DNA of 36,813 nt from an uncultured Bacteroidia bacterium (lineage in GTDB: Bacteria; Bacteroidota; Bacteroidia; Bacteroidales; F082): contig CACXQV010000021.1 of NCBI GenBank assembly GCA_902769875.1, forward strand, positions 1 through 36,813, given 5' to 3'. This document shows, piece after piece, positions 16,792-32,209 of this stretch. Each line of letters begins with the position of its first letter. Positions within the stretch are counted from its first letter, which is position 1. The notes beneath the pieces are model-generated. The model was not told the DNA's origin. It saw nothing but the letters and a program-made list of their open reading frames with translations, and did not search any database. Made by a program: the position numbers and the translations under genes.

Positions 16792-18420
16792 TCACCAATC
16801 CTTGTCGCTTTTACGCTTGGGCTGCTGCCTCACCTTTTGTTCGTTGACCTTCTCCATCGTTTTCTTTTCTTGGTTTTCAAGGGCATCCAACATTCGCTGG
16901 GCATCTTCCTTCGACATTTGCTGGCTTTGTTGTTGCTGCTGTTGCTGGTCTTGATTTTGTTGGTTTTGCTGCTGCTGATCCTGCTGATCCTGCTGGTCTT
17001 GTTGATCCTGTTGCTGGTCCTGCTGCTGTTGCTGTTGGTCTTGGTTTTCGCCTTCGCTCTTCTCAAAGATGGCCGAAATCTCCACGTCGAAGTCGGGCAT
17101 AGTGAAGAAGTTGCCCATAGGCTGCACCTTCACCGACGTGTCGCCCACCTGATGGATGACATATTCCTTGAACTGATAGCCCGGCTCCGGCGCGTTGTCA
17201 AGTTTGACGGTCTCACGGCGTGTGGCCTCCACTTGGTCCAAGCGGATGTGACCACCCTTCAGCGTGGTGTCGGCTTGCACCTTATAATAATTGGTGGCCT
17301 CCACGAATTCGGCTTTCACGGTGACGTCGCTGTCGAGCATCTGGAACACATTGTCGTCGCTGACGGGTGCCGACTCGGTGGCATCGAGGTTGCTGACCAC
17401 ACGCAAGTCGCCCAGCTGGAAGCCTTTGGCAGGTTTCACGATAATGCCGACATTATCGCCCGCCTTCACCAAGCTATCCGTCACCGAAATCGTACCATTC
17501 GAAACGCTATCAATGCTGACTCTCAGGGCGGTACGGAATGTAGCCGTCACAGTCACATCATAATCAGGCATTTGGAAAACATCTTTGTTGACCTGAACCG
17601 TATCTTTGGGGCTGCCCGTGCGATAAACGGTGAATTTGTCGAGCACATAGTCCTCCGCGCCTTGGGCCTCCAATTTGACTTGCTGCCCTTCAATGGCTCT
17701 TTGCCTGTCGGCTCGAACCGTGCCGTTCTTGATGTTCTTTTCGATTTCAACCTTGTGTGCCTCCTTAAACTCTGCCGTCACCAGCACATTGAACTTCGGC
17801 ATGATGAAGCTGCTACCGTTCACTTGCACCTGAACTTGCTGATCGTCAGCCTTCACCACAACATATTGCGACAAGGCATATTTCTCGTCAGGCTGGGTCG
17901 TCAAAGTGACACGCTGACCGTTGAAAGCCTCTTTCTCCTTGGCCTCCACCCTGCCGTTTTTGGGCTGCACCACCCAAATCTGGCTCTTGACGAGATGGGC
18001 GCGGCAATATTCGAGGTTGTAGAGCGCATCGGCATTGTCGGGATTCAGCTTGAGCGACACCTTATATATATTATAGGCATCGTAGAACTTGTCCTGTGCG
18101 AGGAGGCAGTTGCCCATATTGTAGGCCGCACTCGACTTCAACTTGGCATCGGGCGACATCTCCAGCACCTTCTGGAACTCGGTGTAGGCCGTGTCGTAGG
18201 ATTGCTTCGCGAAATACACATCGGCAAGGTTGAACTGCGCCTTGGCATTGTTTGGCCTGATTTCCAAGGCCTTCCCGTAATCGGCGATGGCCTCGGCATA
18301 GTTTGCCCTATTGTAATTGCGGTTGCCTTTCCTGATTTGCTTCTCGTCGCTTTGTGCAGACGCAGAAATCACGGAAACAAACAACACTATGACTGTCAAA
18401 TATTTACGCAATGTTTTCAT
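16792..18420 (-). CDS. batC: BatC with four inserted beta-repeat domains and a glutamine-rich linker
   Basis: The protein has 542 residues from the ATG at 18420, which begins a clear signal peptide (to SASAQ, residue 23) and overlaps the batB end by 17 bases; the frame extends upstream into batB but that part is batB read in another frame. TPR repeats fill about 28-140 (NYAEAIADYGKALEIRPNN, AAYNMGNCLLAQDKFYDAYNIY). Four beta-repeat units follow at about 148-218, 222-295, 298-372 and 377-452; three end in F-x-M-P-x-[FY]-[DN]-V and the third varies (FQMLDSDV), as in InlB B-type/bacterial repeat domains. Residues 459-505 are almost only Q, D and N. The last 37 residues (SKEDAQRMLDALENQEKK to SDKDW) are the standard BatC tail. 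Typical BatC proteins have just TPRs and the tail, so this one is about twice the usual size. It may form an extended periplasmic spacer. Confidence 0.88.
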   Translation of the reverse strand: MKTLRKYLTVIVLFVSVISASAQSDEKQIRKGNRNYNRANYAEAIADYGKALEIRPNNAKAQFNLADVYFAKQSYDTAYTEFQKVLEMSPDAKLKSSAAYNMGNCLLAQDKFYDAYNIYKVSLKLNPDNADALYNLEYCRAHLVKSQIWVVQPKNGRVEAKEKEAFNGQRVTLTTQPDEKYALSQYVVVKADDQQVQVQVNGSSFIMPKFNVLVTAEFKEAHKVEIEKNIKNGTVRADRQRAIEGQQVKLEAQGAEDYVLDKFTVYRTGSPKDTVQVNKDVFQMPDYDVTVTATFRTALRVSIDSVSNGTISVTDSLVKAGDNVGIIVKPAKGFQLGDLRVVSNLDATESAPVSDDNVFQMLDSDVTVKAEFVEATNYYKVQADTTLKGGHIRLDQVEATRRETVKLDNAPEPGYQFKEYVIHQVGDTSVKVQPMGNFFTMPDFDVEISAIFEKSEGENQDQQQQQQDQQQDQQDQQDQQDQQQQNQQNQDQQQQQQQSQQMSKEDAQRMLDALENQEKKTMEKVNEQKVRQQPKRKSDKDW

Positions 18421-19465
18421 TTCTCTTCCCAAAAATGTTAAACTTGGTTTCCCATTTCCTCTTGCCCGAAGAAACCACGATTTCGATGAGCAGCAGGATG
18501 ATGGCAGCCGCCACAAACCATTGGAACTGGTCCTCGTAATCGGTGAATACCTTGGCCTCGATTTCCGACTTCTCGAGCTTGTTGATGTCTTCATAAATCT
18601 TCTCCAAGCCCACGTTGGAATTGCTTGCGCGGACATAGATTCCATTTCCCGCAGCCGCAATCTTTTGCAGCATTTGCTCATCGAGGCGGGTGATGATGGT
18701 GTAGCCGTTGTTGTCTTTGCGGTAGCCCGTTTGCTGTCCGTATCTGTTGTATTCCGGAATGGGGGCGCCTTCGGCCAAACCCATGCCTATCGTATAGATA
18801 TGCACGCCCTGCTTGGCCGCCTCTTGAGCCGCTTTCACGGCAGCGTCGTTTTCGTGGTCTTCACCATCAGATATGATGACGATGGCACGGCTGTGGGCCT
18901 CATCGGGGAACGACTTCAGTGCCAAGTTGATGGCCTCGGCGATGGCCGTTCCCTGCGAAGCCACGAGTTTGGTGTTGATAGTCGAAAGGAACATCTTCGC
19001 TGCCGAATAGTCAGTGGTGATGGGCAGCTGCACGAAGGCCTTGTCGGCAAAGACGATGACACCGATGCGATCGCCACGCATATCGCTGATGAGTTTGTTG
19101 ATGGCTTGTTTCGAGCGTTCCAGTCGGCTCGGGACGATGTCCTCAGCGTTCATCGAATTGGACACGTCGACAGCGATATACAAGTCGATGCCTTCGCGCT
19201 TCACTTCCTCCATCTTGCTGCCGCTCTGCAAGTTGGCCAAAGCCAAAATGCTGCACGCAATTGTCAGAAGGAACACGATGAACTTGAAGTTGGCGCGGCG
19301 GGTGGAATAGGCCGGCACCAGATTGTCGCGCATCTCAAGGTTGGCAAAACGCTCGAAACGCTTCCTCTGCCCGATGCGGAACAGGATATACACAATGACC
19401 AATACCGGGATGATGACCAACCAGTAGAGGTATTCGGGGTGTTCAAATCGCAATACGTTTTCCAT
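18404..19465 (-). CDS. batB: BatB, VWA-domain membrane protein
   Basis: The protein has 353 residues from the ATG at 19465 (MENVLRFEHPEYLYWL, the usual BatA/BatB beginning); an ATG 24 bases upstream is in frame but adds nothing recognisable. Membrane helices lie at about 12-30 and 60-78, and one near the C-terminus (FQWFVAAAIILLLIEIVV). The von Willebrand factor A domain spans about 92-290, with the metal-ion site D100-x-S102-x-S104 (DVSNS) and IVIISDGEDHEND. The VWA domain should face the periplasm. The 3' end overlaps batC by 17 bases, indicating translational coupling. The small ORF at 19471-19623 ends 5 bases before the start. Confidence 0.9.
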   Translation of the reverse strand: MENVLRFEHPEYLYWLVIIPVLVIVYILFRIGQRKRFERFANLEMRDNLVPAYSTRRANFKFIVFLLTIACSILALANLQSGSKMEEVKREGIDLYIAVDVSNSMNAEDIVPSRLERSKQAINKLISDMRGDRIGVIVFADKAFVQLPITTDYSAAKMFLSTINTKLVASQGTAIAEAINLALKSFPDEAHSRAIVIISDGEDHENDAAVKAAQEAAKQGVHIYTIGMGLAEGAPIPEYNRYGQQTGYRKDNNGYTIITRLDEQMLQKIAAAGNGIYVRASNSNVGLEKIYEDINKLEKSEIEAKVFTDYEDQFQWFVAAAIILLLIEIVVSSGKRKWETKFNIFGKRNENIA

Positions 19466-19470
19466 AACAA

Positions 19471-19623
19471 TTATATTGACGCGGAACACGGGGCTTTTTG
19501 GCCATGACCATCGACTTTGACAGCTTTTACGCAGGATGGAAAACCCACGGCTTCGTTTATGCTGCCATTGTCATACTCACAAGTCACAGTCCAAAAGTCT
19601 CGTGCCAAAAGAATAACCTTCAT
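19471..19623 (-). CDS. Candidate 50-residue protein between batA and batB
   Basis: An ATG-to-TAA frame of 50 codons fills the only gap between batA and batB: it starts 9 bases after the batA stop and ends 5 bases before the batB start. The predicted protein begins MKVILLARDFWTVTCEYDNG, contains three cysteines (in TCEY, PSCV and PCSA) and has no signal peptide or membrane helix. I do not recognise a family. Its exact fit to the gap in an otherwise tightly packed operon argues for a real gene. It could instead be a decayed remnant or chance frame, because a 153-base open frame is not rare. Confidence 0.5.
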   Translation of the reverse strand: MKVILLARDFWTVTCEYDNGSINEAVGFPSCVKAVKVDGHGQKAPCSASI

Positions 19624-19632
19624 TTTTCTGAA

Positions 19633-20631
19633 TTAATCTGTAAGTGTCCTGAAAATGGTTTTGCGTAACAGGAATTCGAGCAGCAGCAAGGCCAAAGCCC
19701 AAGCCACCAAAGGATAGAACTCCTCGTGGAGGCGGCGAAACTCCGTCACCTCGATTTTGGAGCGTTCCAACTTGTCGATTTCCTGATAAATCTCGTCCAA
19801 CTTTTGGTTGTTGTTGGCGCGGAAATACTTGCCTCCCGTCGAGTTGGCGATCGTGGAAAGCAACTTCTCGTCAATGTCGACCTTCATTTGGACGATTTGC
19901 GTGCCAAACGGGGTCTGTTGCGGGAAAGGTGCTGTGCCATAGGTGCCTACACCAATGGTATAGACACGAATGCCAAAAATCTTGGCCATCTCGGCAGCGG
20001 TGTACGGGTCGACGGAACCGGCATTGTTCATACCATCGGTAAGCAGAATGACCACCTTCGAGATGGCTTCGCTGTCCTTGAGTCGGCTGATGGCCGTGGC
20101 CAAGCCGTCACCAATGGCGGTGCCGTCGTCGAGGAGGCCGTTTTTCATCTCGGCAAGCATATTGAGCATCACGCCATGGTCGGTGGTCAGCGGCACTTGC
20201 GTAAAGGTCTCGCCTGAGAAAATGACCAATCCCATACGGTCGCCCGGACGGTCTTTGACGAAGTCGGAAGCCACACGCTTGGCCGCAGTGAGGCGGTCAG
20301 GCTTGAGGTCACGGGCCAACATAGAACCCGAAACGTCCATGGCCATCACAATGTCGATGCCCTCGATGTTGGAAGTCGAGTTGGTCGACGAGCTTTGCGG
20401 ACGCGCCAAGGCCACGATGAGCAAGGCCAAAGCGGCAACTTTCAACACGAAAAGAAGGTGACGAAAATAGGCCTTCCAAGTCGTGGGCAGGTTGGCAAAA
20501 CCTTTCAAATCGGAGAAGTTGAGCGAGGCTTCCTGCTTTTTGTGGCGCAACACATACCAAAGGATGGCCAACGGCACCAATAGCAAGAGCCACAGCAGTT
20601 TAGGATTCGCAAATTCGATGTTTTCAAACAT
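19633..20631 (-). CDS. batA: BatA, VWA-domain membrane protein
   Basis: The protein has 332 residues, a typical BatA length. It starts MFENIEFANPKLLWLLLLVPL, with membrane helices at about 11-28 and 58-77 and a C-terminal helix (PLVAWALALLLLEFLL). The VWA domain at about 90-290 has the intact metal-ion site D99-x-S101-x-S103 (DVSGS), followed by GDRMGLVIFSGETFTQVPLT and VVILLTDGMNN. BatA and BatB resemble each other throughout and are thought to be partners in one complex. The start overlaps the end of the upstream membrane-protein gene by 8 bases. Confidence 0.92.
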   Translation of the reverse strand: MFENIEFANPKLLWLLLLVPLAILWYVLRHKKQEASLNFSDLKGFANLPTTWKAYFRHLLFVLKVAALALLIVALARPQSSSTNSTSNIEGIDIVMAMDVSGSMLARDLKPDRLTAAKRVASDFVKDRPGDRMGLVIFSGETFTQVPLTTDHGVMLNMLAEMKNGLLDDGTAIGDGLATAISRLKDSEAISKVVILLTDGMNNAGSVDPYTAAEMAKIFGIRVYTIGVGTYGTAPFPQQTPFGTQIVQMKVDIDEKLLSTIANSTGGKYFRANNNQKLDEIYQEIDKLERSKIEVTEFRRLHEEFYPLVAWALALLLLEFLLRKTIFRTLTD

Positions 20632-21739
20632 GGCTTACCTCCTTTCCCACTGTCGCTGACGGCGTCCCGCTGTCAGAACCATTCATCTGCGAGGACGCAG
20701 ATGACGACAATGATTCAGCTGATGACGACGTTGATTCCATCTGCGGGGACGCAGATGGCGACAATGTCTGTTGATAATGCGCGTAGCTTTCGTTCACGAA
20801 ATCGGTCATACGGTTCAAGCAAGTGTCGCTTTCCAAAGCCGAAGCCGAATATTTTGCAAACTTCACCAAATCAGCCACTTCCATCGTATCTTTCAGCTTG
20901 TTGTAAACCTCTTTGGGGAAATGCAACGGCTTGATTTCCTCCAAAATGTCATCCGTGGTCATCTCGACGGCATTCACGCCGAATTGCCCTTCGATGTATT
21001 CGCGTGCGATGTCGGTGAGCGAGGAGAAATATTCCTTCACCTTGCCCGACTGCCAAATCTTTTCTTCGCGCAAGCGTTTCAGGTCGCCAACGGCCTTGTC
21101 GTAAGGCGGAATCACGGGACCTTTGACAACATTGCCATCGGCATTGACTGTGGACTTACGGCGTTTGACGAAAAACCAAATGCCCAAGCCAACCAACACG
21201 GCCAACAACACGGCCAACAGCCACGGAAACACCTCTTCCATCGTGACTGGAGCTGCCAATGGCTCCACGATAGGCTTGTAGGCCATAGTGGTATCGACTG
21301 CTATCGTATTGGCATATAGATCAATAGGTTCGGTAAAGGCCTGAAAGCGCATCGGATCCTCAAACGAGCGGGCGTAGGTCAGGCCGACGGCAGGCAATTG
21401 GATTTGACCCGTGTCGAAGGTCATCAGTGTAAGTTGTTGTTTCACAATGACATTGCTGTCGGCATCGGCGGTGCGTTCCACGTTGCCGCGTTTCAGGATG
21501 TCGATTTGCTCCGAGAGCGTGTCTTGAGCGAAATCGTTCCACTCGACGAACCAGCCGTAGGGCACCTTTAGGCTCAAATCGAGCGTGAAGGGCTTGCCGA
21601 CCTGCACATCTTGGCTTGCCACCTTGCCTTCCACCTCAACGTTTTGGGGTGAAAGACCATCGTTTTGGGGAGATGCAAAGCATCGCATCCCTACAGCCAT
21701 AGCAACAACCATCAACCCTAACAAAATGTTTCTTTTCAT
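20624..21739 (-). CDS. Bat-operon single-pass membrane protein (hypothetical, between DUF58 and BatA)
   Basis: The protein has 371 residues from the ATG at 21739, which overlaps the DUF58 gene stop by 4 bases (ATGA); the longer frame upstream is DUF58 coding sequence in another frame. Residues 1-22 form a signal peptide, then a beta-rich periplasmic part, one membrane helix at about 171-192 and a cytoplasmic domain at about 205-320 (YDKAVGDLKRLREEKIWQSGKVKEYFSSLTDIAREYIEG). Proteins of this kind occupy this slot in Bat operons and resemble the cytoplasmic part of BatD/DUF4381-type proteins; no function is known. Two parts come from palindromic repeats: the end of the signal peptide (MRCFASPQN, DNA 21667-21693) and a Ser-rich tail with a twice-repeated LSxSASxQM (DNA 20684-20766). 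Confidence 0.8.
   Translation of the reverse strand: MKRNILLGLMVVAMAVGMRCFASPQNDGLSPQNVEVEGKVASQDVQVGKPFTLDLSLKVPYGWFVEWNDFAQDTLSEQIDILKRGNVERTADADSNVIVKQQLTLMTFDTGQIQLPAVGLTYARSFEDPMRFQAFTEPIDLYANTIAVDTTMAYKPIVEPLAAPVTMEEVFPWLLAVLLAVLVGLGIWFFVKRRKSTVNADGNVVKGPVIPPYDKAVGDLKRLREEKIWQSGKVKEYFSSLTDIAREYIEGQFGVNAVEMTTDDILEEIKPLHFPKEVYNKLKDTMEVADLVKFAKYSASALESDTCLNRMTDFVNESYAHYQQTLSPSASPQMESTSSSAESLSSSASSQMNGSDSGTPSATVGKEVSHV
20684..20766. repeat. Two direct copies of a hairpin repeat inside the 3' end of the Bat-operon membrane protein gene
   Basis: Copies at 20684-20712 and 20738-20766 differ at two positions over 29 bases. Each contains CATCTGC/GCAGATG arms around a short loop. They encode the repeated LSxSASxQM segment of a low-complexity serine-rich tail. 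Confidence 0.7.
21667..21693. repeat. Palindromic repeat inside a signal-peptide coding region
   Basis: On the minus strand GTAGGGATGC is followed by GATGC-TTT-GCATC and TCCCC, a hairpin in the style of the 159-228 and 10929-10954 units. It encodes the residues around the signal-peptide cleavage site of the Bat-operon membrane protein. Confidence 0.55.
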
Positions 21740-22614
21740 CTTCTCGCCTCCCTTTTCTTGAAAAGTTGCATCATAGGCTTCACATAGTCTTCGCCAGTGT
21801 AAATCAGCGCGTTGTCGATGCCTTGTTTGGTGAACTCGCGGTTCAGTTCCGCCGACTTGCGATGGATCATTTCGCTGTAGGCTTCGCGCCAGGCAAGGCT
21901 TGAGGTGTCGGCCCAGCGTTCCTTGCCGGTCTCCGCGTCGCGGAATTTCACCAAACCCACCTTCGGGATGTCCATCTCGCGGCGGTCGGTGATGCGCAAC
22001 GCGACCAAGTCGTGCTTGTTGGCGCAAATCTGCATTTCCTTCTCGAAACTTTGGTCCGTCATGAAGTCGGAAATCAGGAAGGCCGTGGTGCGCCGCTTGA
22101 TGGCCGAAGTCATGAAACGCAAGCCCTCGCCGATGTCGGTTCCGCGCTCCGTAGGCTTGAAATCAACGATTTCGCGAATGATGCGAAGGATATGCGAACT
22201 GCCCTTCTTGGGCGGGATGAATTTTTCGATTTTGCTGCTGAAGAAAATCACGCCAACCTTGTCGTTGTTTTGGATGGCAGAAAATGCCAAAACGGCAGCC
22301 AACTCGGCTGTCAGGTCTCGTTTCGACTGACTCTGTGAGCCGAAATCGTTGGAACCCGACACGTCGATGAGCAGCATCACCGTCATCTCGCGCTCTTCCT
22401 CAAAAATCTTGACGAAAGGCCGGTTGAAACGGGCGGTGACGTTCCAGTCGATGTTGCGGATGTCGTCGCCGTACTCGTACTCACGCACCTCGCTGAAGGT
22501 CATGCCACGCCCCTTGAAGGCACTGTGGTATTGCCCCGAAAAGATGTGGTTCGAGAGGCCTCGCGTCTTGATTTCGATTTTGCGGACTTTCTTGAATATT
22601 TCTGTTGATTCCAT
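21736..22614 (-). CDS. DUF58 domain protein (VWA-like)
   Basis: The protein has 292 residues. It shows the DUF58 signature around 47-62 (YEYGDDIRNIDWNVTAR) and a VWA-like metal site DVSGS at 84-88, followed by LAFSAIQNNDKVGVIFFSS and TTAFLISDFM. It has no signal peptide or membrane helix and should be cytoplasmic. DUF58 proteins are regularly paired with MoxR ATPases and are thought to be their adaptor or substrate-linking partner. The gene is 85 bases downstream of moxR and overlaps the next gene by 4 bases. Confidence 0.92.
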   Translation of the reverse strand: MESTEIFKKVRKIEIKTRGLSNHIFSGQYHSAFKGRGMTFSEVREYEYGDDIRNIDWNVTARFNRPFVKIFEEEREMTVMLLIDVSGSNDFGSQSQSKRDLTAELAAVLAFSAIQNNDKVGVIFFSSKIEKFIPPKKGSSHILRIIREIVDFKPTERGTDIGEGLRFMTSAIKRRTTAFLISDFMTDQSFEKEMQICANKHDLVALRITDRREMDIPKVGLVKFRDAETGKERWADTSSLAWREAYSEMIHRKSAELNREFTKQGIDNALIYTGEDYVKPMMQLFKKREARR

Positions 22615-22648
22615 ATTTTAAACCATCTATTGTATCCTATTTCGTTAT

Positions 22649-22697
22649 CGGCAGGGGTTTACACCGCCTGCCTATTGCGCTGTCGTCCCTACGGGAC
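22649..22697. repeat. Third copy of the dispersed hairpin repeat, in the MoxR-DUF58 gap
   Basis: CGGCAGGGGTTTACACC followed by GCCTGCC and, after a variable stretch, a GTCCCTACGGGAC hairpin. It matches copy B at 16742-16791 in layout. It occupies most of the 85-base gap. Confidence 0.7.
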
Positions 22698-22699
22698 TA

Positions 22700-23692
22700 T
22701 TACGGGACTTCGATGGTGTTCAGGATTTCGTTGATGATTTCTTCTGTGGTAATATTCTCAGCCTCAGCCTCGTAGGTCAATCCGATACGGTGACGGAGCA
22801 CATCGGGAGCCACGGCACGAATGTCTTCGGGGATGACATAGCCACGGTGCTTGATGAAGGCGTAAGCCTTGGCCGCCAATGCCAAATTGATGGTGGCACG
22901 CGGCGAACCGCCGTAACTGATCATTTTGGCAAACTTCTTCAACTTGTAGTCGCTCGGGAAACGCGATGCGAAAACGATGTCGGTGATGTAGTTTTCAATT
23001 TTTTCGTCCAAATAAATCTCGCGGCACACCTCGCGGGCGCGGATGATGTCGTTGGGCTTCACCACAGCGTCGATTTTCGCACCGGCGTTGGCAATGTTCT
23101 GACGCAGAATGAGTTTCTCCTCCTCTTTCTTGGGGTAATTGATGATGACTTTCAGCATAAAACGATCCACCTGAGCCTCAGGCAGCGGATAAGTTCCCTC
23201 TTGCTCAATGGGGTTTTGCGTTGCCATCACAAGGAACGGATCCGGCAGTTGGAAGGTTTCGTCGCCGATGGTCACCTGATGCTCCTGCATGGCTTCGAGC
23301 AATGCGCTCTGCACCTTGGCAGGCGAGCGGTTGATTTCATCTGCCAAGACGAAATTGGCGAAGATGGGGCCGCGACGCACCACAAATTCCTCCTTCTTTT
23401 GGCTGTAAATCAGCGTGCCGATGAGGTCGGCGGGCAGCAGGTCTGGGGTGAATTGGATGCGGGCGAAGTCGGCATCGATAGCACTCGCCATCGACTTGAT
23501 AGCCAAGGTTTTGGCCAATCCAGGCACACCTTCAAGCAGAATGTGTCCGTTGGCCAACAGGCCGATCAAAAGTCTTTCGGTCATCTGTTTCTGCCCGACG
23601 ATGACCTTGTTCATTTCGAGGTTGATGAGGTCGAGGAATTGGCTCTCTCGTTGGATTTTTTCGTTCAGTTCACGAATGTCAGTCTCTATCAT
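22700..23692 (-). CDS. MoxR-family AAA+ ATPase (BatF-like)
   Basis: The protein has 330 residues from the ATG at 23692 (MIETDIRELNEKIQRE); an in-frame ATG at 23794 lies only just after the predicted transcription start and would translate a repeat, so it is rejected. Walker A is GVPGLAKT at 55-62, Walker B LADEINRSP at about 116-124, sensor region VMATQNPIEQEGTYPLPEAQVDRFMLK, and sensor 2 GGSPRAT. This is the MoxR type. It acts in the cytoplasm as an ATP-driven chaperone that probably acts on the VWA proteins encoded downstream. It is the first gene of the Bat operon, with its promoter at 23803-23832. Confidence 0.92.
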   Translation of the reverse strand: MIETDIRELNEKIQRESQFLDLINLEMNKVIVGQKQMTERLLIGLLANGHILLEGVPGLAKTLAIKSMASAIDADFARIQFTPDLLPADLIGTLIYSQKKEEFVVRRGPIFANFVLADEINRSPAKVQSALLEAMQEHQVTIGDETFQLPDPFLVMATQNPIEQEGTYPLPEAQVDRFMLKVIINYPKKEEEKLILRQNIANAGAKIDAVVKPNDIIRAREVCREIYLDEKIENYITDIVFASRFPSDYKLKKFAKMISYGGSPRATINLALAAKAYAFIKHRGYVIPEDIRAVAPDVLRHRIGLTYEAEAENITTEEIINEILNTIEVP

Positions 23693-23730
23693 TTTATGTT
23701 GATTGTTTGATTGTTTAGTCGTTGTTTGTT

Positions 23731-23790
23731 GGCGCGGGGAATGAATTCCCCGATGACATCGGCTCGTCCTTTCAGGACTTTTTGCGCCCG
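23731..23790. repeat. Hairpin-rich repeat in the leader of the Bat operon
   Basis: The stretch contains GGGGAAT/ATTCCCC, CGATG-A-CATCG and GTCCTTTCAGGAC hairpins packed within 60 bases. The layout resembles dispersed intergenic repeats of Bacteroidota. It lies between the transcription start and the moxR start codon, so it would be part of the mRNA leader. Confidence 0.5.
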
Positions 23791-23802
23791 TCAAAAAGCG
23801 TG

Positions 23803-26343: not shown

Positions 26344-27891
26344 CTAAATGATGGCTTCAAAAAGCCGTTTTCCGTTGTGTTCAATCCAATGGGGTTCGGC
26401 CTCGACTTTGTTTTTCGAGAAGTCGAAAGTCACCAAATAGCCTTCCTCTAATCCTTTAACGGCAAGGTATTCAGAGAGTTGGTCGCGTCCTGACTGCTCG
26501 TATTTGTCGCCGTGCCAGATTTTCAGTTCGACGATGAATTCCTTTTTGCCGTATGTGACCACCAAATCCATTCGGCGGTTGTCGCGGGTCTGAGGCTCAA
26601 CATAATAGAATCCCGTTCCGTTGATGACCGGCTTGAGGAAAGTGAGGAACAACAAACGACCTTCGCGCTCAAGGAAAGGCACCGTGCTCTCGCGGTACTC
26701 CTCGTGCATCAAATCCGCGAAACGCCTGACAACCATTTCCATATCCAGCACATCATCCTTCACATAATTGTATTGGAGCCTCAGTTTGCCCATATCGGCG
26801 ATGCTCTGCTCTGCAATGAAATAGTTGTTCAACACCTCCTCAAAAATGATGTTGTGAATCCTGACTTTGCGGTTGGCGTCGTACTTGATGATGCTGAACA
26901 TTGTGGCAAAATCCATCACGGGATTGTTGATGTCGTAGGTCACCGTGTCGCCCAAAATGGAGATGGAATAGATAAAACGCTTCAGTTCGGGATATTCCTC
27001 AAGGCTTTTGGTAAGGCTCGTGAACAGCGTGTTTTTTTCCAAAATGGTCTGTTTTGTGGCCTCTTGCACGCCTTCAATGGTCCAATTTTGGTCCAATTCC
27101 TCGTCAATCACCTTGCAGAGTTTGCTCACGAGGAAGGGATAGCCGAAAGTGTATTTGTAAATCTCCTCGCTCACCGCCTTGATGTCCATACCCGTGTGCA
27201 TATCGTTCTCGTAATCGCCCAACATCTGCGCGATTTCTTCGGGATGGAAGGTCATATCCACCTTGAAATCGGCGGCGATGTTCCACGGCGAGTTGTATTT
27301 CCTTTCCGCATCGGGGCGAAGTTTCAGTTTGAGGTTCTTGACATCGTAAACGCCAGCGAGAACTACGCTGTGGAAAGTATAGTTCATACCGTTTTCGTCC
27401 CTTCCCAAATACAAATCGCGCAACATTCCGATAAAACCGACAAAAATCTGGTTATTGGAACTCTTGTCCACTTCGTCTATCAATAGTACAACCGGTTTGG
27501 GAAACGCTCGGCAGAAAGCGATTATGGCTTGGCCCAAACTGTCAAAACTCATAATATCAGGGTTTTTCCAAATGGATGCATATTGCTCATTTTCAGCAGT
27601 TTTGATTTCCCTAAGTATTCTTCCCGAAAACATCTTTGCAAATGATTCTTCATCTTTGAAAGGAGCATCGCCGACACCCTCAAAACTGGTTTTTATGACC
27701 AAATATCGGTCAGACAATTTGCGCCAAATCATACTTAAAGTGGTCGTTTTCCCATACTGCCGCGCACGGTTGATGGTGAAATATTTGCCTCGGTCAATCA
27801 GGTTCTCGACTGATTTGAAGCGTTTTGTGGTATCCACCATATAATGCCATTGGGGATTGCAACTGCCCGTGATATTGAATTCCTTTCTCAT
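26344..27891 (-). CDS. AAA-ATPase-like protein with C-terminal PD-(D/E)XK nuclease-like domain
   Basis: The protein has 515 residues. The N-terminal part has a Walker A-like RARQYGKTTT at 42-51 and Walker B VVLLIDEVDKS near 133-143, matching the AAA-ATPase-like family (PF09820 type). The C-terminal domain carries a PD-(D/E)XK core: Asp442 in RRMDLVV, then Glu455-x-Lys457 in FIVELK. This two-domain protein occurs in many scattered copies in Bacteroidota; role unknown, with proposals linking it to mobile elements or defence. It is convergent with aspartate kinase (35-base gap), and a -7 box TATTTTTG lies at 27912-27919 on the minus strand. Confidence 0.88.
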   Translation of the reverse strand: MRKEFNITGSCNPQWHYMVDTTKRFKSVENLIDRGKYFTINRARQYGKTTTLSMIWRKLSDRYLVIKTSFEGVGDAPFKDEESFAKMFSGRILREIKTAENEQYASIWKNPDIMSFDSLGQAIIAFCRAFPKPVVLLIDEVDKSSNNQIFVGFIGMLRDLYLGRDENGMNYTFHSVVLAGVYDVKNLKLKLRPDAERKYNSPWNIAADFKVDMTFHPEEIAQMLGDYENDMHTGMDIKAVSEEIYKYTFGYPFLVSKLCKVIDEELDQNWTIEGVQEATKQTILEKNTLFTSLTKSLEEYPELKRFIYSISILGDTVTYDINNPVMDFATMFSIIKYDANRKVRIHNIIFEEVLNNYFIAEQSIADMGKLRLQYNYVKDDVLDMEMVVRRFADLMHEEYRESTVPFLEREGRLLFLTFLKPVINGTGFYYVEPQTRDNRRMDLVVTYGKKEFIVELKIWHGDKYEQSGRDQLSEYLAVKGLEEGYLVTFDFSKNKVEAEPHWIEHNGKRLFEAII

Positions 27892-28023: not shown

Positions 28024-31000
28024 ATGTACAAAATCGAAAAACACCCTATTTTGGACATCCCGCAGGAAGACCTTGTGGAATTCCAATATGAAGGCAAGAC
28101 CGTGAAAGGTCAGCGGGGCAAGACCATCGCCGCCGCCCTTCACCAAGCCGGCTATCCCGTTCACAGCCACAGCCTTGACGGACGCAACCGAAGCCTCAAC
28201 TGCGGCATCGGCAAGTGCGGTGCCTGCGAAATGCTCGTCGACGGCAAAGTCCGCCGTATCTGCATCACCCTCGTCGATGGTGTCAAGGAAGTGCGCTCCA
28301 TCAACAACGAAGCCAACATCCTTCCCGAGCCTAAGGAACACCAGCCCCGCGAAGTGAAAATCTACAAGACCCAAGTCGCCATCATCGGTGCGGGTCCTGC
28401 CGGTCTCGCCTGCCGTGAGCAACTGAACGCCTTCGGCATCAGCAACATCGTCATCGACAACAACGCCCGCATTGGCGGACAGTTCAATATGCAGACCCAC
28501 CAGTTCTTCTTCTTCGAGAAGGAGAAGAAATTCGGCGGAATGCGCGGTTTCGACATCGCCAAGACTTTGGCCGGCGACAACCACGAGGGCATTTTGCTCA
28601 ACAACACCGTTTGGGACTTGCTTGAAGGCGGTCGTGTGGCCATCAAGAACATCGAAAACGGTGAGATAGGCTACATCGACGCGCAACATTTGGTGGTCGC
28701 CACGGGTGCAGTTCCCTTTATGCCGACCTTCGAGAACGACGACGTGCCGGGCGTTTACACTGCCGCCGTGTTCCAAAAGATGATGAACCAAGAGCACACC
28801 TTATTAGGTAAGAAAGTCCTCACCGTGGGTGCAGGCAACATCGGCTACTTGACCTCTTATCAAGGAATGCAGGCCGGAGCCACCATCAAGGCCATCATCG
28901 AGGCAATGCCCCGCGAGGGCGGCTTCCCCGTGCAGGCCAACCGCGTGCGCCGTCTCGGCATCCCGATTATGACAGGCTACACCCTCGTGCGCGCCATTCC
29001 GAACAAGGACAAGACGGGCGTGGTGGGTGCCGTCATCGCCAAGTGCGAAAACTTCAAGGCCATCCCCGGCACTGAGCAAGTCATTGACGACATCGACATC
29101 ATCAATATTTGCACGGGCTTGATTCCTGACAGTCAGTTGCTTGTCAAGGGTCGCGAGGTTTTCGGACTCAACACCTACGGTGCTGGCGATGCCATCCGTA
29201 TCGGTGAAGGCACCAGCGCGGTTTTGCGTGGTAAGCAAGTCGCTTACGAGGTGGCTCAAGCCATTGGCGTGAGGTTCAATTATGACGACTATCTCGAAGT
29301 TTCGAGACAATATATCGACTCGCAACAGCATCCCGTCAGGGTGTTGGAGAAGCCCAACCTGCCTACGCCTGAGCGTATGCAACTCAAGGCTTTCGTGCAG
29401 GCCGACTGCCTCTACGGCTTCGCTTGCAATCCTTGCTCGTTCAGTTGCCCGCAAGGCGCCATCAGCAAGCCCTCGACCAACACCGTGCCGACTATCGACT
29501 ACGACAAGTGCATCGGCTGTATGCTATGCGTCTCCAGTTGTCCGGGCTTGGCCATCTTCGGCTACGACGTGAAGAAATCCACCTGCTTCCTGCCTATCGA
29601 ATACGAAGCACAAGAAGGCTCGGAAGTCTATCTCGTTGATAATGACGGACAAAAGATTGGCGAAGGTGTCATCGAAAAAATCCTCAAGAAATCGAACAAG
29701 ACCAACGTGGCCCGCGTGAAAGCTCGCTCCTCGCGCCCCTCTGGAGAGGCGAGTATGGTGTTTGAGTTGACGGATGTGAAGGGCTTTATCCTGAAAGACC
29801 GTTACAACGCCAACAAGGAACTCACCACTCCCCTTTCCTCAAGAAAAGAAGCCGAGGGCGAGGGCGAGACCTACGTCTGCCACTGCGAGGACATCAAACT
29901 CGACCGCGTGTTGCGCGTCATCGGCAACCGCAAGACCATCTCCGTGGACGAACTGAAGCACATCACCCGTATGGGTATGGGCCCGTGCCGTGGAAAGCGT
30001 TGCATCCCACGCGCCCGCCAGATTTTGCGTTCCTACGGCATCGAATTGGTCGGCGACGCCACGCCGCGTGCCCCGCTGTCGAACCAAGTCACCCTTGGCG
30101 ACCTCTACAACCCGCACACCAAAGAAGTCTTTGTCTTCCCCGAAATGAACGATGTGAAGAAAGAACAGGTCGAAGTGTTCATTGCTGGTGGCGGTATTGC
30201 GGGCAGCGCTTTGTTCCGCTACTTCTCGGAAGCCGGCAAGAAGCCCGTGATGATCAACTACAGCCGTGGCGCTTCGTGGCGTTGCATTGGTGGCGGTCGT
30301 CCTGCCTTCTCCAACCCCGACATCGCCGACATCGCCGTACACAACCACGAGATTTTCAAGAATATGCAGAAGGAGCACAACATCAACTACCACCCGACGC
30401 ACTATGTCAACTTGGTACACGATGAGGCGACCTACAACTCCCTTGATGCCTCTCGCGCTTGGAGCGATGCCTATATGATTGAGCGCAAGGACTTTAAGAA
30501 GGAGATTTCGCCGCTGTGGGACGACAGCAAGGACACCTATAGCCACGCCCTCATCACCCGCGACTGCTGGCAGGCCACTCCCGGTCGCGTCATCGACTAC
30601 ATCCGTTGGATTGGTGTACAACAGGGAGGACGTTATTTCGAGGACTGCGAACTGCTCCACGTGCAGAAAGCCAATGGACATTACATTGCCTTGGTGCGCA
30701 CTCATGAGGGCGAGTTCATCGAATACACCTGCGACCACTTCGTCAACGCGATGGGTTGGGGTGCCGAGAAGTTCAACGATATGCTTGGCTTAGATACAGG
30801 GCTTTATCCCGTGAAGCACCAAGCCTTCATTACGCGCCGTCTGCCTATGATGGGACCCAATGGCGGCCCGTTGGATATGATTATCGACCGCCGTCACTAC
30901 AAGGGCTTCAGCGCCGTCTACGGACAGCAATGGGCACACACCGGCCAAATCATCGGCTGCGCCAGCCCCGACACCGACGCTTACGAGGCACGTCAGAACA

Positions 31001-31293
31001 TCAAGTACAACAGCAAGGAGTTCTTGGAAATCGTTTCCGAGGTTTTCGCCGAATGGATTCCGAACTTGGGCGAAGTCAGCTTCTTGGCTTGCTGGGCTGG
31101 TCGCTACACAGAGCCGCGTTACATCGTCGACCCAGAGGTCGGTATCCTCACCGGCTTGCGCGGCCACGGCTTTATGCTCGGCCAATACTTAGCCAAACTA
31201 TATGTGGACAAGTACCTTGGCAAGGAGGTTCCAGGCTATATGAAGGATCTCGCCTTGAGCGGAAAGGGACTGAGCGAGAATGCGTTTAAGTAA
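28024..31293 (+). CDS. Single-chain multidomain iron-sulfur flavoprotein dehydrogenase (opine/proline/hydroxyproline dehydrogenase or cyanide synthase subunit types fused)
   Basis: The protein has 1089 residues with six recognisable parts. (1) Residues 15-100: 2Fe-2S domain with Cys60, 65, 68 and 80 (CGIGKCGAC...C). (2) 115-420: FAD/NAD(P)-binding pyridine nucleotide-disulfide-type oxidoreductase with GAGPAG at 122-127, VVATGAVPFMP, and a second dinucleotide motif GAGNIG at 269-274. (3) 455-510: two 4Fe-4S ferredoxin motifs, Cys462/468/471/475 and Cys496/499/502/506. (4) about 530-600, linker. (5) 615-670: BFD-like 2Fe-2S with Cys619, 621, 655, 660. (6) 715-1075: DAO-type FAD oxidase with AGGGIAG at 721-727 and a C-terminal GLRGHGFMLGQYLAK. 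Parts 1, 2/5 and 6 correspond to HcnA, HcnB and HcnC-type or opine/hydroxyproline/proline dehydrogenase subunits; part 3 matches the ferredoxin subunit of archaeal dye-linked proline dehydrogenases. The likely reaction is oxidation of a secondary amine such as a D- or L-proline compound; substrate is inferred. It has no signal peptide. Confidence 0.88.
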   Translation: MYKIEKHPILDIPQEDLVEFQYEGKTVKGQRGKTIAAALHQAGYPVHSHSLDGRNRSLNCGIGKCGACEMLVDGKVRRICITLVDGVKEVRSINNEANILPEPKEHQPREVKIYKTQVAIIGAGPAGLACREQLNAFGISNIVIDNNARIGGQFNMQTHQFFFFEKEKKFGGMRGFDIAKTLAGDNHEGILLNNTVWDLLEGGRVAIKNIENGEIGYIDAQHLVVATGAVPFMPTFENDDVPGVYTAAVFQKMMNQEHTLLGKKVLTVGAGNIGYLTSYQGMQAGATIKAIIEAMPREGGFPVQANRVRRLGIPIMTGYTLVRAIPNKDKTGVVGAVIAKCENFKAIPGTEQVIDDIDIINICTGLIPDSQLLVKGREVFGLNTYGAGDAIRIGEGTSAVLRGKQVAYEVAQAIGVRFNYDDYLEVSRQYIDSQQHPVRVLEKPNLPTPERMQLKAFVQADCLYGFACNPCSFSCPQGAISKPSTNTVPTIDYDKCIGCMLCVSSCPGLAIFGYDVKKSTCFLPIEYEAQEGSEVYLVDNDGQKIGEGVIEKILKKSNKTNVARVKARSSRPSGEASMVFELTDVKGFILKDRYNANKELTTPLSSRKEAEGEGETYVCHCEDIKLDRVLRVIGNRKTISVDELKHITRMGMGPCRGKRCIPRARQILRSYGIELVGDATPRAPLSNQVTLGDLYNPHTKEVFVFPEMNDVKKEQVEVFIAGGGIAGSALFRYFSEAGKKPVMINYSRGASWRCIGGGRPAFSNPDIADIAVHNHEIFKNMQKEHNINYHPTHYVNLVHDEATYNSLDASRAWSDAYMIERKDFKKEISPLWDDSKDTYSHALITRDCWQATPGRVIDYIRWIGVQQGGRYFEDCELLHVQKANGHYIALVRTHEGEFIEYTCDHFVNAMGWGAEKFNDMLGLDTGLYPVKHQAFITRRLPMMGPNGGPLDMIIDRRHYKGFSAVYGQQWAHTGQIIGCASPDTDAYEARQNIKYNSKEFLEIVSEVFAEWIPNLGEVSFLACWAGRYTEPRYIVDPEVGILTGLRGHGFMLGQYLAKLYVDKYLGKEVPGYMKDLALSGKGLSENAFK

Positions 31294-31306: not shown

Positions 31307-31329
31307 GGCTGTCGCGGTTTGCGGCAGCC
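31307..31329 (+). terminator. Terminator of the flavoprotein gene
   Basis: GGCTGTCGC, loop GGTTT, GCGGCAGCC, then CTTTG. The hairpin begins 14 bases after the stop. The T run is short, so strength is uncertain. Confidence 0.5.
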
Positions 31330-31348
31330 CTTTGTATTGACGGAAAAA

Positions 31349-31403
31349 CTACAGAAACGTGCCAAATCTATGATTTGTTTCAAGATTTGGCACGTTTCTG
31401 TAG
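31349..31403. repeat. Perfect 21-base inverted repeat upstream of the small gene/kinase-like gene pair
   Basis: Arms 31349-31369 and 31383-31403 are exact complements (core AACGTGCCAAATCT) around a 13-base loop. It lies 31 bases before the -7 box TATATTTG at 31435-31442 of the next genes. It may be a hairpin terminator, an operator for that promoter, or the end of a mobile unit. Confidence 0.75.
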
Positions 31404-31434
31404 GAAATTTGTTTATTTTCCTACCAAATTGTTG

Positions 31435-31442
31435 TATATTTG
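31435..31442 (+). promoter_or_regulatory. -7 promoter element of the small gene/kinase-like gene pair
   Basis: TATATTTG matches TAnnTTTG. The start codon of the first gene is 33 bases downstream. A TTTG lies 23 bases upstream of it, slightly farther than usual. Confidence 0.6.
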
Positions 31443-31475
31443 CACCCGATAATCATAAAATTGAAATGTGGCTGT

Positions 31476-31676
31476 ATGGAAGAAAAATTATTGACACTCT
31501 CTTTAAGAGACGGGCAAAACGCCCTCCAATATGTGCGCAGTTTGAACCAAGGAGTGAGGCAGATAGCGACCGAAGCGATATTGGAATGTTCGAGGTTGGG
31601 CTATCCATTGAACGATATGGAAATCACGAGCAAGGCACGGGAAATGCAGCGCAAGAAGCGGAAAGCAACCGCTTGA
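31476..31676 (+). CDS. Small protein, first gene of a candidate toxin-antitoxin pair
   Basis: The protein has 66 residues from the ATG at 31476; an upstream in-frame ATG at 31440 lies inside the -7 box, so it cannot be used. It begins MEEKLLTLSLRDGQNALQYV, is mostly helical by its pattern, and ends in a basic stretch (REMQRKKRKATA). I know no named family. Its 3' end overlaps the next gene: the stop TGA sits in TTGA, where TTG can start the kinase-like gene. A small basic gene with a translationally coupled partner is the layout of antitoxin-first modules; this is inference. Confidence 0.65.
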   Translation: MEEKLLTLSLRDGQNALQYVRSLNQGVRQIATEAILECSRLGYPLNDMEITSKAREMQRKKRKATA

Positions 31677-32209
31677 TTTCCATCGCAAAAGAAAACGGAT
31701 GCTTCATCTCCCGAGAAAAATGGGACATATTTGGAGACCGCAAACGGTTACCATCAGGTGAGAGCATAGTCTATTTGGACGAAAAAGGCCAAAAAGTCAC
31801 AAAGGTGCGTAATCCGTTTGCCAAATCCGCCATCAAACAGATGCGTGCGTATGATGCCATTTATGAGCATTTAGTTCATAATGTGCTTTTCCCCAACACG
31901 AAATACCACTTCGAAGGCATCGGAGAAGATGTGGATGGAGTACGCATCATTTTAAGTCAGCCCTACATTTCAAAGAAATTCCTGACACCTTCTCAACAAG
32001 AAATCGACCGTTATTTAGTGGAAGGACTTGGACTGAAGCCTGAGAATCGATATTTCTATGGAAATGAGTATTTGGCCATAACGGACGTGTCGGCAGAAAG
32101 CGACAATGTACTGACTGATGGAGAGCAACTTTATTTCATTGACCCCATCATCAAAATGAAAAAACCTGCTGTTCAGGTATTAGAACACTATTATAAACAT
32201 TTGACATAG
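31586..32209 (+). CDS. Kinase-like protein (polyvalent-protein kinase family resemblance), candidate toxin
   Basis: From the ATG at 31586 the protein has 207 residues and overlaps the upstream gene by 91 bases. A TTG at 31673, overlapping that gene's stop by 4 bases (TTGA), is an equally good start, giving 178 residues that begin ahead of ISIAKENGCFISREKW. The body shows a kinase-like order: a lysine in GQKVTKV (residue 73), HNVLFPNTKYHFEGIG, a linker with IILSQPYI, DVSAESDNVL (residues 167-176) as the catalytic loop and FID (Asp186) as the DFG equivalent. This matches the Kinase-PolyVal family, first described in phage and mobile-element polyvalent proteins; stand-alone copies may act as toxins. 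The DVSAESDN loop is two residues longer than the usual D-x4-N, so activity is uncertain. Convergent with the next gene. Confidence 0.6.
   Translation: MFEVGLSIERYGNHEQGTGNAAQEAESNRLISIAKENGCFISREKWDIFGDRKRLPSGESIVYLDEKGQKVTKVRNPFAKSAIKQMRAYDAIYEHLVHNVLFPNTKYHFEGIGEDVDGVRIILSQPYISKKFLTPSQQEIDRYLVEGLGLKPENRYFYGNEYLAITDVSAESDNVLTDGEQLYFIDPIIKMKKPAVQVLEHYYKHLT

Follow-up and report, generated by a model that had tools for sequence, protein, structure and literature searches.

A single-chain flavo-iron-sulfur dehydrogenase conserved in Bacteroidales and its possible relation to proline oxidation

The gene at positions 28024 to 31293 of contig CACXQV010000021.1, from an uncultured Bacteroidia bacterium (assembly GCA_902769875.1), raises the question of whether a dehydrogenase that is elsewhere a complex of several subunits can be encoded as one polypeptide and, if so, which substrate it would oxidise. 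The whole stretch of 36,813 nt that was analysed is referred to as the window, and residue numbers are those of the 1089-residue window protein. A preliminary description had read the gene as an all-in-one fusion of subunits that are usually separate. The fusion proved genuine and conserved, but its domain order is not rare, as 109 of 295 sampled Bacteroidales genomes carried it full-length. Our interpretation, held tentatively and with less than even confidence, is that this gene provides, in one self-contained polypeptide, a version of the heteromeric DAO-type imino- and amino-acid dehydrogenases, probably without flavin mononucleotide (FMN) and of the proline type, which would have arisen by fusion of an electron-carrying wiring module with a DAO dehydrogenase. 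Proline is the best-supported guess at the substrate, though somewhat short of an even chance.

Distribution of the fusion

Overall, the fusion was present in 113 of the 295 Bacteroidales genomes, as one full-length match in 109 and in pieces on separate contigs in four (G452, G540, G571 and G675), and it is therefore neither a chance nor an assembly join but a conserved one-chain protein of Bacteroidales. The search at E 1e-30 gave 115 genomes, from which G533 and G552 were removed because their matching protein was of a type carrying FlpD; the tally by genus before this removal was 76 of 183. Among the 118 matches listed, 109 spanned from query residue 6 or earlier to residue 1087 or later, and the other nine were seven pieces in the four fragmented genomes and two of the FlpD type. 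The preliminary description had proposed to see whether the fusion is confined to Bacteroidota. Within this phylum it was seen in Bacteroidales alone, with none among 389 sampled genomes of other Bacteroidota, and the phyla outside were covered by plasmid records and by the best 80 of at least 575 contig relatives. In the phylum-wide sample searched at E 1e-50, the window's own genome was alone among 395, five others being listed as of the same order.

A Parabacteroides distasonis record labelled as a plasmid carried a full-length copy (63% identical), the sole one of 225 matching plasmid records whose match extended over 80% of the query or more. A homologue from this species has the accession WP_048927274.1. 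One annotated copy was labelled 'FAD-dependent oxidoreductase' only. In the genome-contig scan, the best 80 of at least 575 relatives had best segments 76-100% identical and were, by title, largely ruminant metagenome-assembled genomes; all 80 titles named Bacteroidetes, Bacteroidia, Bacteroidales, Prevotella(ceae) or Ca. Colimorpha. No stretch of the viral contigs matched the six peptide patterns used.

In the gene tree, genomes of one family code mostly fell together, as expected for vertical descent. The genomes of family codes f57 and f136 were an exception and stood on two well-separated branches (L141 with L142 and L143; L147 and L154 with L144), a pattern suggestive of either lateral transfer or an old duplication followed by losses. 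In addition, the final 63 codons of the gene recurred as an isolated second copy (95% identical) at 6469-6657 of L009, approximately 1.4 kb downstream of the complete gene, and may be a duplication or an assembly effect.

Domain organisation and cluster cysteines

The uninterrupted open reading frame (ORF) and the domain order of the preliminary description were both confirmed, as the Pfam matches followed the order Fer2_4, Pyr_redox_2, Fer4, Fer2_BFD and DAO, each above its curated cut-off. The first 4Fe-4S motif was in addition covered (from residue 467) by 4Fe-4S dicluster models, which scored below their curated cut-offs, as did TIGR01372 (sarcosine oxidase alpha; 67.7 bits vs 1164) and TIGR03377 (GlpA; 60.7 bits vs 552.8). 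PF01619, the family of canonical proline dehydrogenase (PRODH/PutA), was absent among the 17 families listed for the window protein. Both the alpha- and the beta-type part carried the expected FAD motif at its N terminus (GAGPAG, 122-127; AGGGIAG, 721-727), and a second GxGxxG in the HcnB-type domain (269-274) was invariant in 41 sequences.

All 16 cluster cysteines named earlier were present in the window protein. A lack of conservation among homologues had been given as grounds for abandoning the description, and the opposite was observed: 16/16 were invariant in 114 aligned full-length sequences, and in a second set of 116 sequences (55-96% identical to the window protein, median 64%) 15 were invariant and Cys80 was retained in 115 rows and replaced by Tyr in one. 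The 114-row alignment was made without L062 and L083 (missing from the ORF list, genes complete by tblastn), the partial L012, L016 and L029, the duplicates L001 and window, and L002, L003, L104 and L105. The first [2Fe-2S] site, C60-x4-C65-x2-C68-x11-C80, showed the gamma-type pattern C-x4-C-x2-C-x11-12-C. The BFD site had the spacing C619-x-C621-x33-C655-x4-C660 compared with the C-x-C-x15-20-C-x4-C printed for alpha-type subunits in PMC4575208, and the opine-type alpha subunit of L130, with 32 residues by hand count, was also outside the printed 15-20. The five-residue first spacing of the first 4Fe-4S motif, previously regarded as unusual, was present but is not peculiar to this protein; it recurs in a split relative (below) and thus marks the wiring module.

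Across the 116 sequences, mean identity to the window protein was 60% for residues 513-600, and the junction at 673-709 was the least conserved of seven compared stretches with a mean identity of 49%. Full-length structure prediction from a 41-row alignment gave a mean predicted local distance difference test score (pLDDT) of 56.7 and a predicted TM-score (pTM) of 0.37, the alignment being too shallow for cluster-to-cluster distances.

Catalytic domain and loss of the Arg-X-Trp motif

Sequence and predicted fold both place the catalytic domain closest to the beta subunit of archaeal L-proline dehydrogenase among the solved chains and the few references used. The DAO domain matched 1y56_B with E 3.8e-13, DMGDH with 1.4e-4 and glycine oxidase with 0.012 among PDB sequences. 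A DAO-only AlphaFold2 model of moderate confidence (mean pLDDT 68.8, pTM 0.70) gave 1y56_B as first Foldseek hit (E 4.1e-21, 23% identity), followed by DMGDH, glycine and sarcosine oxidase from 3.9e-17, matches which support the family and not fine detail. The fusion consensus WAGYY was the same as in 1y56_B, with residue 1027 being Tyr in 104 of 116 sequences, and 1y56_A was the best solved chain for the N-terminal half. A tree of the DAO domain against named families had been suggested beforehand. In a tree of 18 rows, the fusion domains joined 1y56_B with a support of 85/72, apart from opine-type and hydroxyproline-operon sequences; this tree is weak, with long branches and with references from plasmids and one PDB chain, HcnC not being among them.

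Excerpts of PMC4575208 describe an Arg-X-Trp motif in the beta subunit as the putative FMN site of opine, D-hydroxyproline and L-proline dehydrogenases, with FMN lying between alpha and beta. In the fusion family, the Arg column held Ala in 112 of 116 sequences and Ser in four, never Arg, and the Trp was invariant (116/116). Ten of 11 outside sequences had Arg in this column (eight R-X-W, one RSY and one RWV, the last DMGDH-like), and the eleventh, DadA-like, had Arg one place further on. Because this Arg was lost on the beta side, FMN is probably missing from the fusion protein, and the internal Fe-S clusters would carry the electrons instead. The earlier expectation of a whole electron path in one polypeptide needs amending, since the proposed FMN site has lost its beta-side Arg.

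A split relative and the origin of the fusion

The two Bacteroidales genomes of the FlpD type, G533 (locus L104) and G552 (L105), encoded a protein of 1290-1292 residues which carries the same wiring module. Its C-terminal approximately 680 residues matched window residues 2-694 (29% identity over 722 columns for the G533 copy), including the C-x5-C-x2-C-x3-C motif and the 513-600 stretch, and its N terminus carried a second 2Fe-2S domain, several 4Fe-4S motifs and FlpD. A NuoF-like gene was located upstream and a separate 387-residue DAO dehydrogenase directly downstream, with a 4-base overlap between module and DAO genes in L104 and a 2-base gap in L105. The separate DAO protein scored best to ThiO and SoxB models, below their cut-offs, and kept the Arg-x-Trp. 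The set resembles an amine dehydrogenase complex that is linked to NAD and may be bifurcating.

By alignment, the wiring module of the fusion is closest, among those compared, to this 4Fe-4S-bearing version with separate NuoF-like and DAO genes. The order of module and then DAO is the same as in the fused protein, so that losing a single stop codon between the two neighbouring genes would give the fusion, and we infer that it arose from a wiring-module gene joining the DAO gene directly downstream. The L104 and L105 sets are regarded as relatives of the fusion and not as its demonstrated ancestors.

Proposed electron path

In the proposed mechanism, the C-terminal DAO flavin would oxidise proline or a near analogue to an imine, which for L-proline would be delta1-pyrroline-5-carboxylate (P5C). 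The electrons would then cross, in one order or another, the 2Fe-2S clusters of the BFD and HcnA-like domains and the 4Fe-4S pair, and these clusters would replace the FMN relay of the split enzymes. They would leave at the HcnB-type FAD, where the second GxGxxG is intact, for NAD+, another soluble carrier or a quinone as acceptor, and P5C would be passed to P5C dehydrogenase. Given the potentials involved, electrons from proline reach quinone easily and NAD+ only uphill.

Gene neighbourhood

Neighbouring genes were compared at 115 loci, comprising 108 of the 113 fusion genomes (without G000 and the four piecewise genomes), six contigs and one plasmid, and 107 of these loci showed both flanks. 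No conserved operon was found around the fusion gene at these loci. One shared gene, DUF177-like by eye, was directly downstream in 21 loci of 13 family codes, and a divergent glycogen-synthase-like gene (by eye) was upstream in 12; PlsX-like and FabH-like genes, also by eye, were further along in many loci of this kind. These neighbours were read as marking a common chromosomal site.

Canonical PRODH (PF01619) was directly beside the fusion in five of the 115 loci, in four family codes, two PRODH types and three arrangements (short type divergent in L134, L168 and L135; short type convergent in L210; long type divergent in L136). Approximately 0.05 such neighbours were expected by a rough count for the 75 genomes with both genes, with loci treated as independent. 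On the gene tree, the PRODH label needed four changes, of which at least three were forced by well-supported branches, gains and losses not being told apart. A family scan was run with one neighbour per cluster (120-1300 residues, clusters 1-7 left out), in which 66 of 72 upstream and 65 of 70 downstream representatives were scanned, the others being dropped by hand. PRODH was matched by two upstream representatives and one downstream representative, PdxA, MatE and ABC_tran once per side and Peptidase_S8 twice downstream, among the 25 of 99 and 25 of 80 families listed.

Co-occurrence with genes of amino-acid catabolism

Co-occurrence was assessed in the 295 Bacteroidales genomes; as these are related, all p values are too small. 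A 203-genome set and a set of one genome per family (n = 116), assembled from the handle numbers and family codes shown, were also used. P5C dehydrogenase (TIGR01236) was found in 175 genomes at E 1e-100 or better (172 above cut-off), hutH in 103 above cut-off (strict) and 150 with any match, and proline racemase in 24 counted at 70 bits or more (29 passing the curated cut-off, 41 at E 0.001).

P5C dehydrogenase was present in 96 of the 113 fusion genomes vs 79 of the 182 others (p 5e-13), with an odds ratio (OR) of 6.4 in the 203 genomes. Genomes negative for PRODH showed the same pattern (26/38 with fusion vs 14/80 without, p 1.7e-7), as did PRODH-positive genomes (70/75 vs 65/102), the one-genome-per-family set (42/52 vs 27/64, p 2.6e-5) and its PRODH-negative part (11/18 vs 8/32, p 0.016). 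In a joint model with PRODH, hutH and ornithine aminotransferase held, the link between the fusion and P5C dehydrogenase remained (p 0.0015), and the fusion was negatively related to PRODH (coefficient -0.94, p 0.017). Unadjusted, PRODH showed no clear association with the fusion (75/113 vs 102/182, p 0.09). Finally, the window's genome (83% complete) and three sampled congeners (99%) had the fusion and P5C dehydrogenase, and PRODH was not found in them.

Alternative readings of substrate and acceptor

Several observations weigh against a proline-type enzyme. Excerpts of PMC4575208 describe a subfamily that lies near archaeal L-proline dehydrogenase and showed no activity with L-proline. The identity of the DAO domain to 1y56_B is approximately 25%, with the tree support of 85/72. 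Several of the five PRODH neighbours sit at the shared chromosomal site, the adjacency of the short type could be one old arrangement with losses, and a neighbour with no visible proline link (cluster 14) adjoined the fusion in four loci of three family codes; two further clusters did so in three loci of two family codes each. The adjusted link between the fusion and P5C dehydrogenase had p 0.042 with one genome per family. No significant exclusion of fusion and PRODH was seen among P5C-dehydrogenase-positive genomes (OR 0.58, p 0.15; one genome per family, OR 1.2, p 0.79). Moreover, 17 of the 113 fusion genomes had no P5C dehydrogenase match, 12 of them lacking PRODH too, and 14 genomes held P5C dehydrogenase with neither fusion nor PRODH.

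The main alternative is that the same one-chain architecture acts on another substrate (glycine, sarcosine, a D-amino acid, pipecolate or an opine), the proline signals being effects of lineage and lifestyle, and we consider this quite possible, though no more than a good minority chance. In the 203 genomes, the strongest partner of the fusion was ornithine aminotransferase (OR 12.8), and hutH, which is unconnected with proline, had an OR of 9.0 with any match, both exceeding that of P5C dehydrogenase; strict hutH was weaker (OR 4.4). A general axis of amino-acid catabolism thus explains much of the fusion's link to P5C dehydrogenase and, since P5C is also the product of ornithine aminotransferase, P5C dehydrogenase may serve ornithine. 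A different substrate would also fit with the absence of PRODH beside the fusion in 110 of 115 loci, with the glycine and sarcosine oxidases and DMGDH that come after 1y56_B in the fold list, and with the ease with which, in excerpts of PMC4575208, substrates change in families of such type. It is less easily reconciled with the E-values of 1y56_B, which leads the sequence search by approximately nine orders of magnitude and the fold search by four, and with PRODH being the commonest direct neighbour once the shared-site genes are set aside (five loci and four family codes vs four loci and three codes for the next).

A stronger form of the proline reading seems unlikely. It holds that the internal 4Fe-4S pair replaced the FMN relay, that the enzyme gives amino-acid-fermenting Bacteroidales an extra route to P5C and that it stands in for PRODH in lineages such as the window's genus.

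Electron confurcation, in which electrons from the substrate and from reduced ferredoxin would meet on the internal clusters and jointly reduce NAD+, is improbable. The nearest module relative (29%, 722 columns) does belong to a three-gene set in which a NuoF-like gene accompanies FlpD and additional 4Fe-4S domains, the second GxGxxG of the HcnB-type domain is invariant, and proline electrons alone would reduce NAD+ only uphill. However, the fusion is a single chain without NuoF, FlpD or extra ferredoxin domains, and no NuoF, FlpD or ferredoxin supply was among the listed neighbour families.

The D-4-hydroxyproline dehydrogenase of the hydroxyproline pathway (epimerase, D-hydroxyproline dehydrogenase, deaminase, dehydrogenase) shares its subunit types with the fusion, and split relatives on Priestia and Deinococcus plasmids adjoin proline-racemase-family, DapA-like and aldehyde dehydrogenase genes, but this least probable reading was rejected because proline racemase/hydroxyproline epimerase showed no association (7/113 vs 17/182, p 0.39) and was not found in the window's genome, no pathway genes were seen among the scanned window neighbours or the neighbour families listed elsewhere, and the DAO domain was apart from the Deinococcus and Priestia sequences in the tree.

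Other features of the gene and window

The features of the gene and of the split relative are as in Table 1. The promoter pattern, which we take to be of the Bacteroidota type, matched perfectly at a single place in the window; when one mismatch was allowed there were six matches vs 3.5 expected, and 16 of 100 shuffles reached six, so near matches were not above chance. Hairpins like the candidate terminator were also not above chance (three in the region vs 4.3 in shuffles). The gene looks monocistronic from this candidate promoter and hairpin, on weak evidence. A riboswitch or other RNA control was rejected, as the window had no Rfam match at gathering score and eight relatives had only two tRNAs.

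Table 1. Coordinates of the gene, its domains and candidate signals in the window, and of the related three-gene set
Feature	Position	Strand	Basis
Single-chain flavo-iron-sulfur dehydrogenase, 1089 aa	28024..31293	+	Uninterrupted ATG ORF; full-length homologues
HcnA-like [2Fe-2S] domain, residues 1-110, Cys 60/65/68/80	28024..28353	+	Fer2_4 17-90; conserved Cys
HcnB-like FAD/NAD oxidoreductase, residues 111-455	28354..29388	+	Pyr_redox_2 117-378; nearest solved chains 1y56_A, sarcosine oxidase alpha
First 4Fe-4S motif, C462-x5-C468-x2-C471-x3-C475	29407..29448	+	Invariant 116/116; spacing common to split relative P0002
Second 4Fe-4S motif, C496-x2-C499-x2-C502-x3-C506	29509..29541	+	Fer4 489-511; invariant 116/116
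Intervening domain, residues 513-600, mostly strands predicted	29560..29823	+	Aligns with P0002; strands from low-confidence model
BFD-like [2Fe-2S] domain, residues 617-669, Cys 619/621/655/660	29872..30030	+	Fer2_BFD; invariant 116/116
Junction, residues 673-709	30040..30150	+	Start matches C terminus of split module (P0002 aligned to its residue 1276)
DAO-type FAD dehydrogenase domain, residues 718-1062	30175..31209	+	PF01266 E 1.9e-31; 1y56_B by sequence and fold
Site of beta-subunit Arg-X-Trp motif (proposed FMN site), reads Ala-Cys-Trp	31087..31095	+	Ala 112, Ser 4 of 116
Candidate promoter TTTG-N18-TAtgTTTG, 58 bases 5' of start codon	27936..27965	+	Sole perfect pattern match in window
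Candidate terminator hairpin, 10 pairs, weak T tail, 3' of stop	31307..31329	+	Hairpin search
Three-gene set NuoF-like / FlpD-HcnA-HcnB-multi-4Fe-4S-BFD / DAO	L104 1-6337 (G533); L105 104-6854 (G552)		

Just upstream of the fusion gene and antisense to it, an AAA-ATPase-like protein with a C-terminal PD-(D/E)XK nuclease match was encoded (26344-27891, minus strand), and a Kinase-PolyVal ORF (PF18762, E 1.4e-35; kinase domain of polyvalent proteins) followed right after (31319-32209, plus strand). Further away (18404-23794, minus strand), a MoxR-like AAA ATPase, a DUF58 protein and two ORFs that are von Willebrand A membrane proteins by eye form what is presumably a BatA/B-like locus.

Comparison with known systems

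The nearest solved relative of both halves of the fusion is the L-proline dehydrogenase PDH1 of Pyrococcus horikoshii (1y56, PH1363 alpha/beta), whose beta subunit resembles the DAO domain and whose alpha subunit resembles the HcnA, HcnB and BFD parts. PDH1 differs in having separate subunits and, in excerpts of PMC4575208, an FMN between them with the Arg-X-Trp whose Arg is lost in the fusion; in the printed alignment, the HcnA part of 1y56_A has none of the four cysteines and no 4Fe-4S pair lies between HcnB and BFD. The opine and D-hydroxyproline dehydrogenases and HcnABC have a gamma subunit with the HcnA-like [2Fe-2S] motif, an alpha subunit with HcnB and BFD parts and a DAO beta subunit (PMC4575208, excerpts). 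They are encoded by three genes, however, their aligned alpha subunits lack the 4Fe-4S pair and they keep the Arg of Arg-X-Trp; the fusion DAO domain was 17-19% identical to the opine- and hydroxyproline-operon sequences used. Overall, the FAD GxGxxG motifs and the gamma [2Fe-2S] motif of the heteromeric family were found in the fusion, whereas its Arg-X-Trp and separate subunits were not.

The L104 and L105 sets share the wiring module, including the C-x5-C-x2-C-x3-C motif and the 513-600 domain, and the DAO gene directly downstream, but have a separate DAO protein, a module whose N terminus is joined to FlpD and additional Fe-S domains, and a NuoF-like partner. PRODH/PutA would catalyse the same proposed reaction and belongs to another protein family. 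GlpABC-type anaerobic dehydrogenases have DAO, HcnB-like and BFD parts, in line with the weak TIGR03377 match, but in the Fusobacterium example (L226) a single chain has DAO followed by BFD, with Pyr_redox_2 on a protein of its own. No description of such a fusion or of the Bacteroidales gene was recognised in literature searches of open-licence papers (titles and abstract starts); as far as searched, this structure, common in Bacteroidales, is apparently undescribed.

Implications

The gene marks a widely distributed step in anaerobic amino-acid breakdown for which no name was found. Should the substrate be proline, Bacteroidales would possess another way to P5C in addition to canonical PRODH and ornithine aminotransferase and, if the intact NAD site is used, the uphill reduction of NAD+ could be coupled within a single chain. 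In an abundant order of the gut and rumen, a complex needing several subunits elsewhere occurs in nature as a single polypeptide that carries two FAD sites along with four predicted Fe-S clusters, and this one-chain form would make the electron transfer of the enzyme family directly testable on a single protein.

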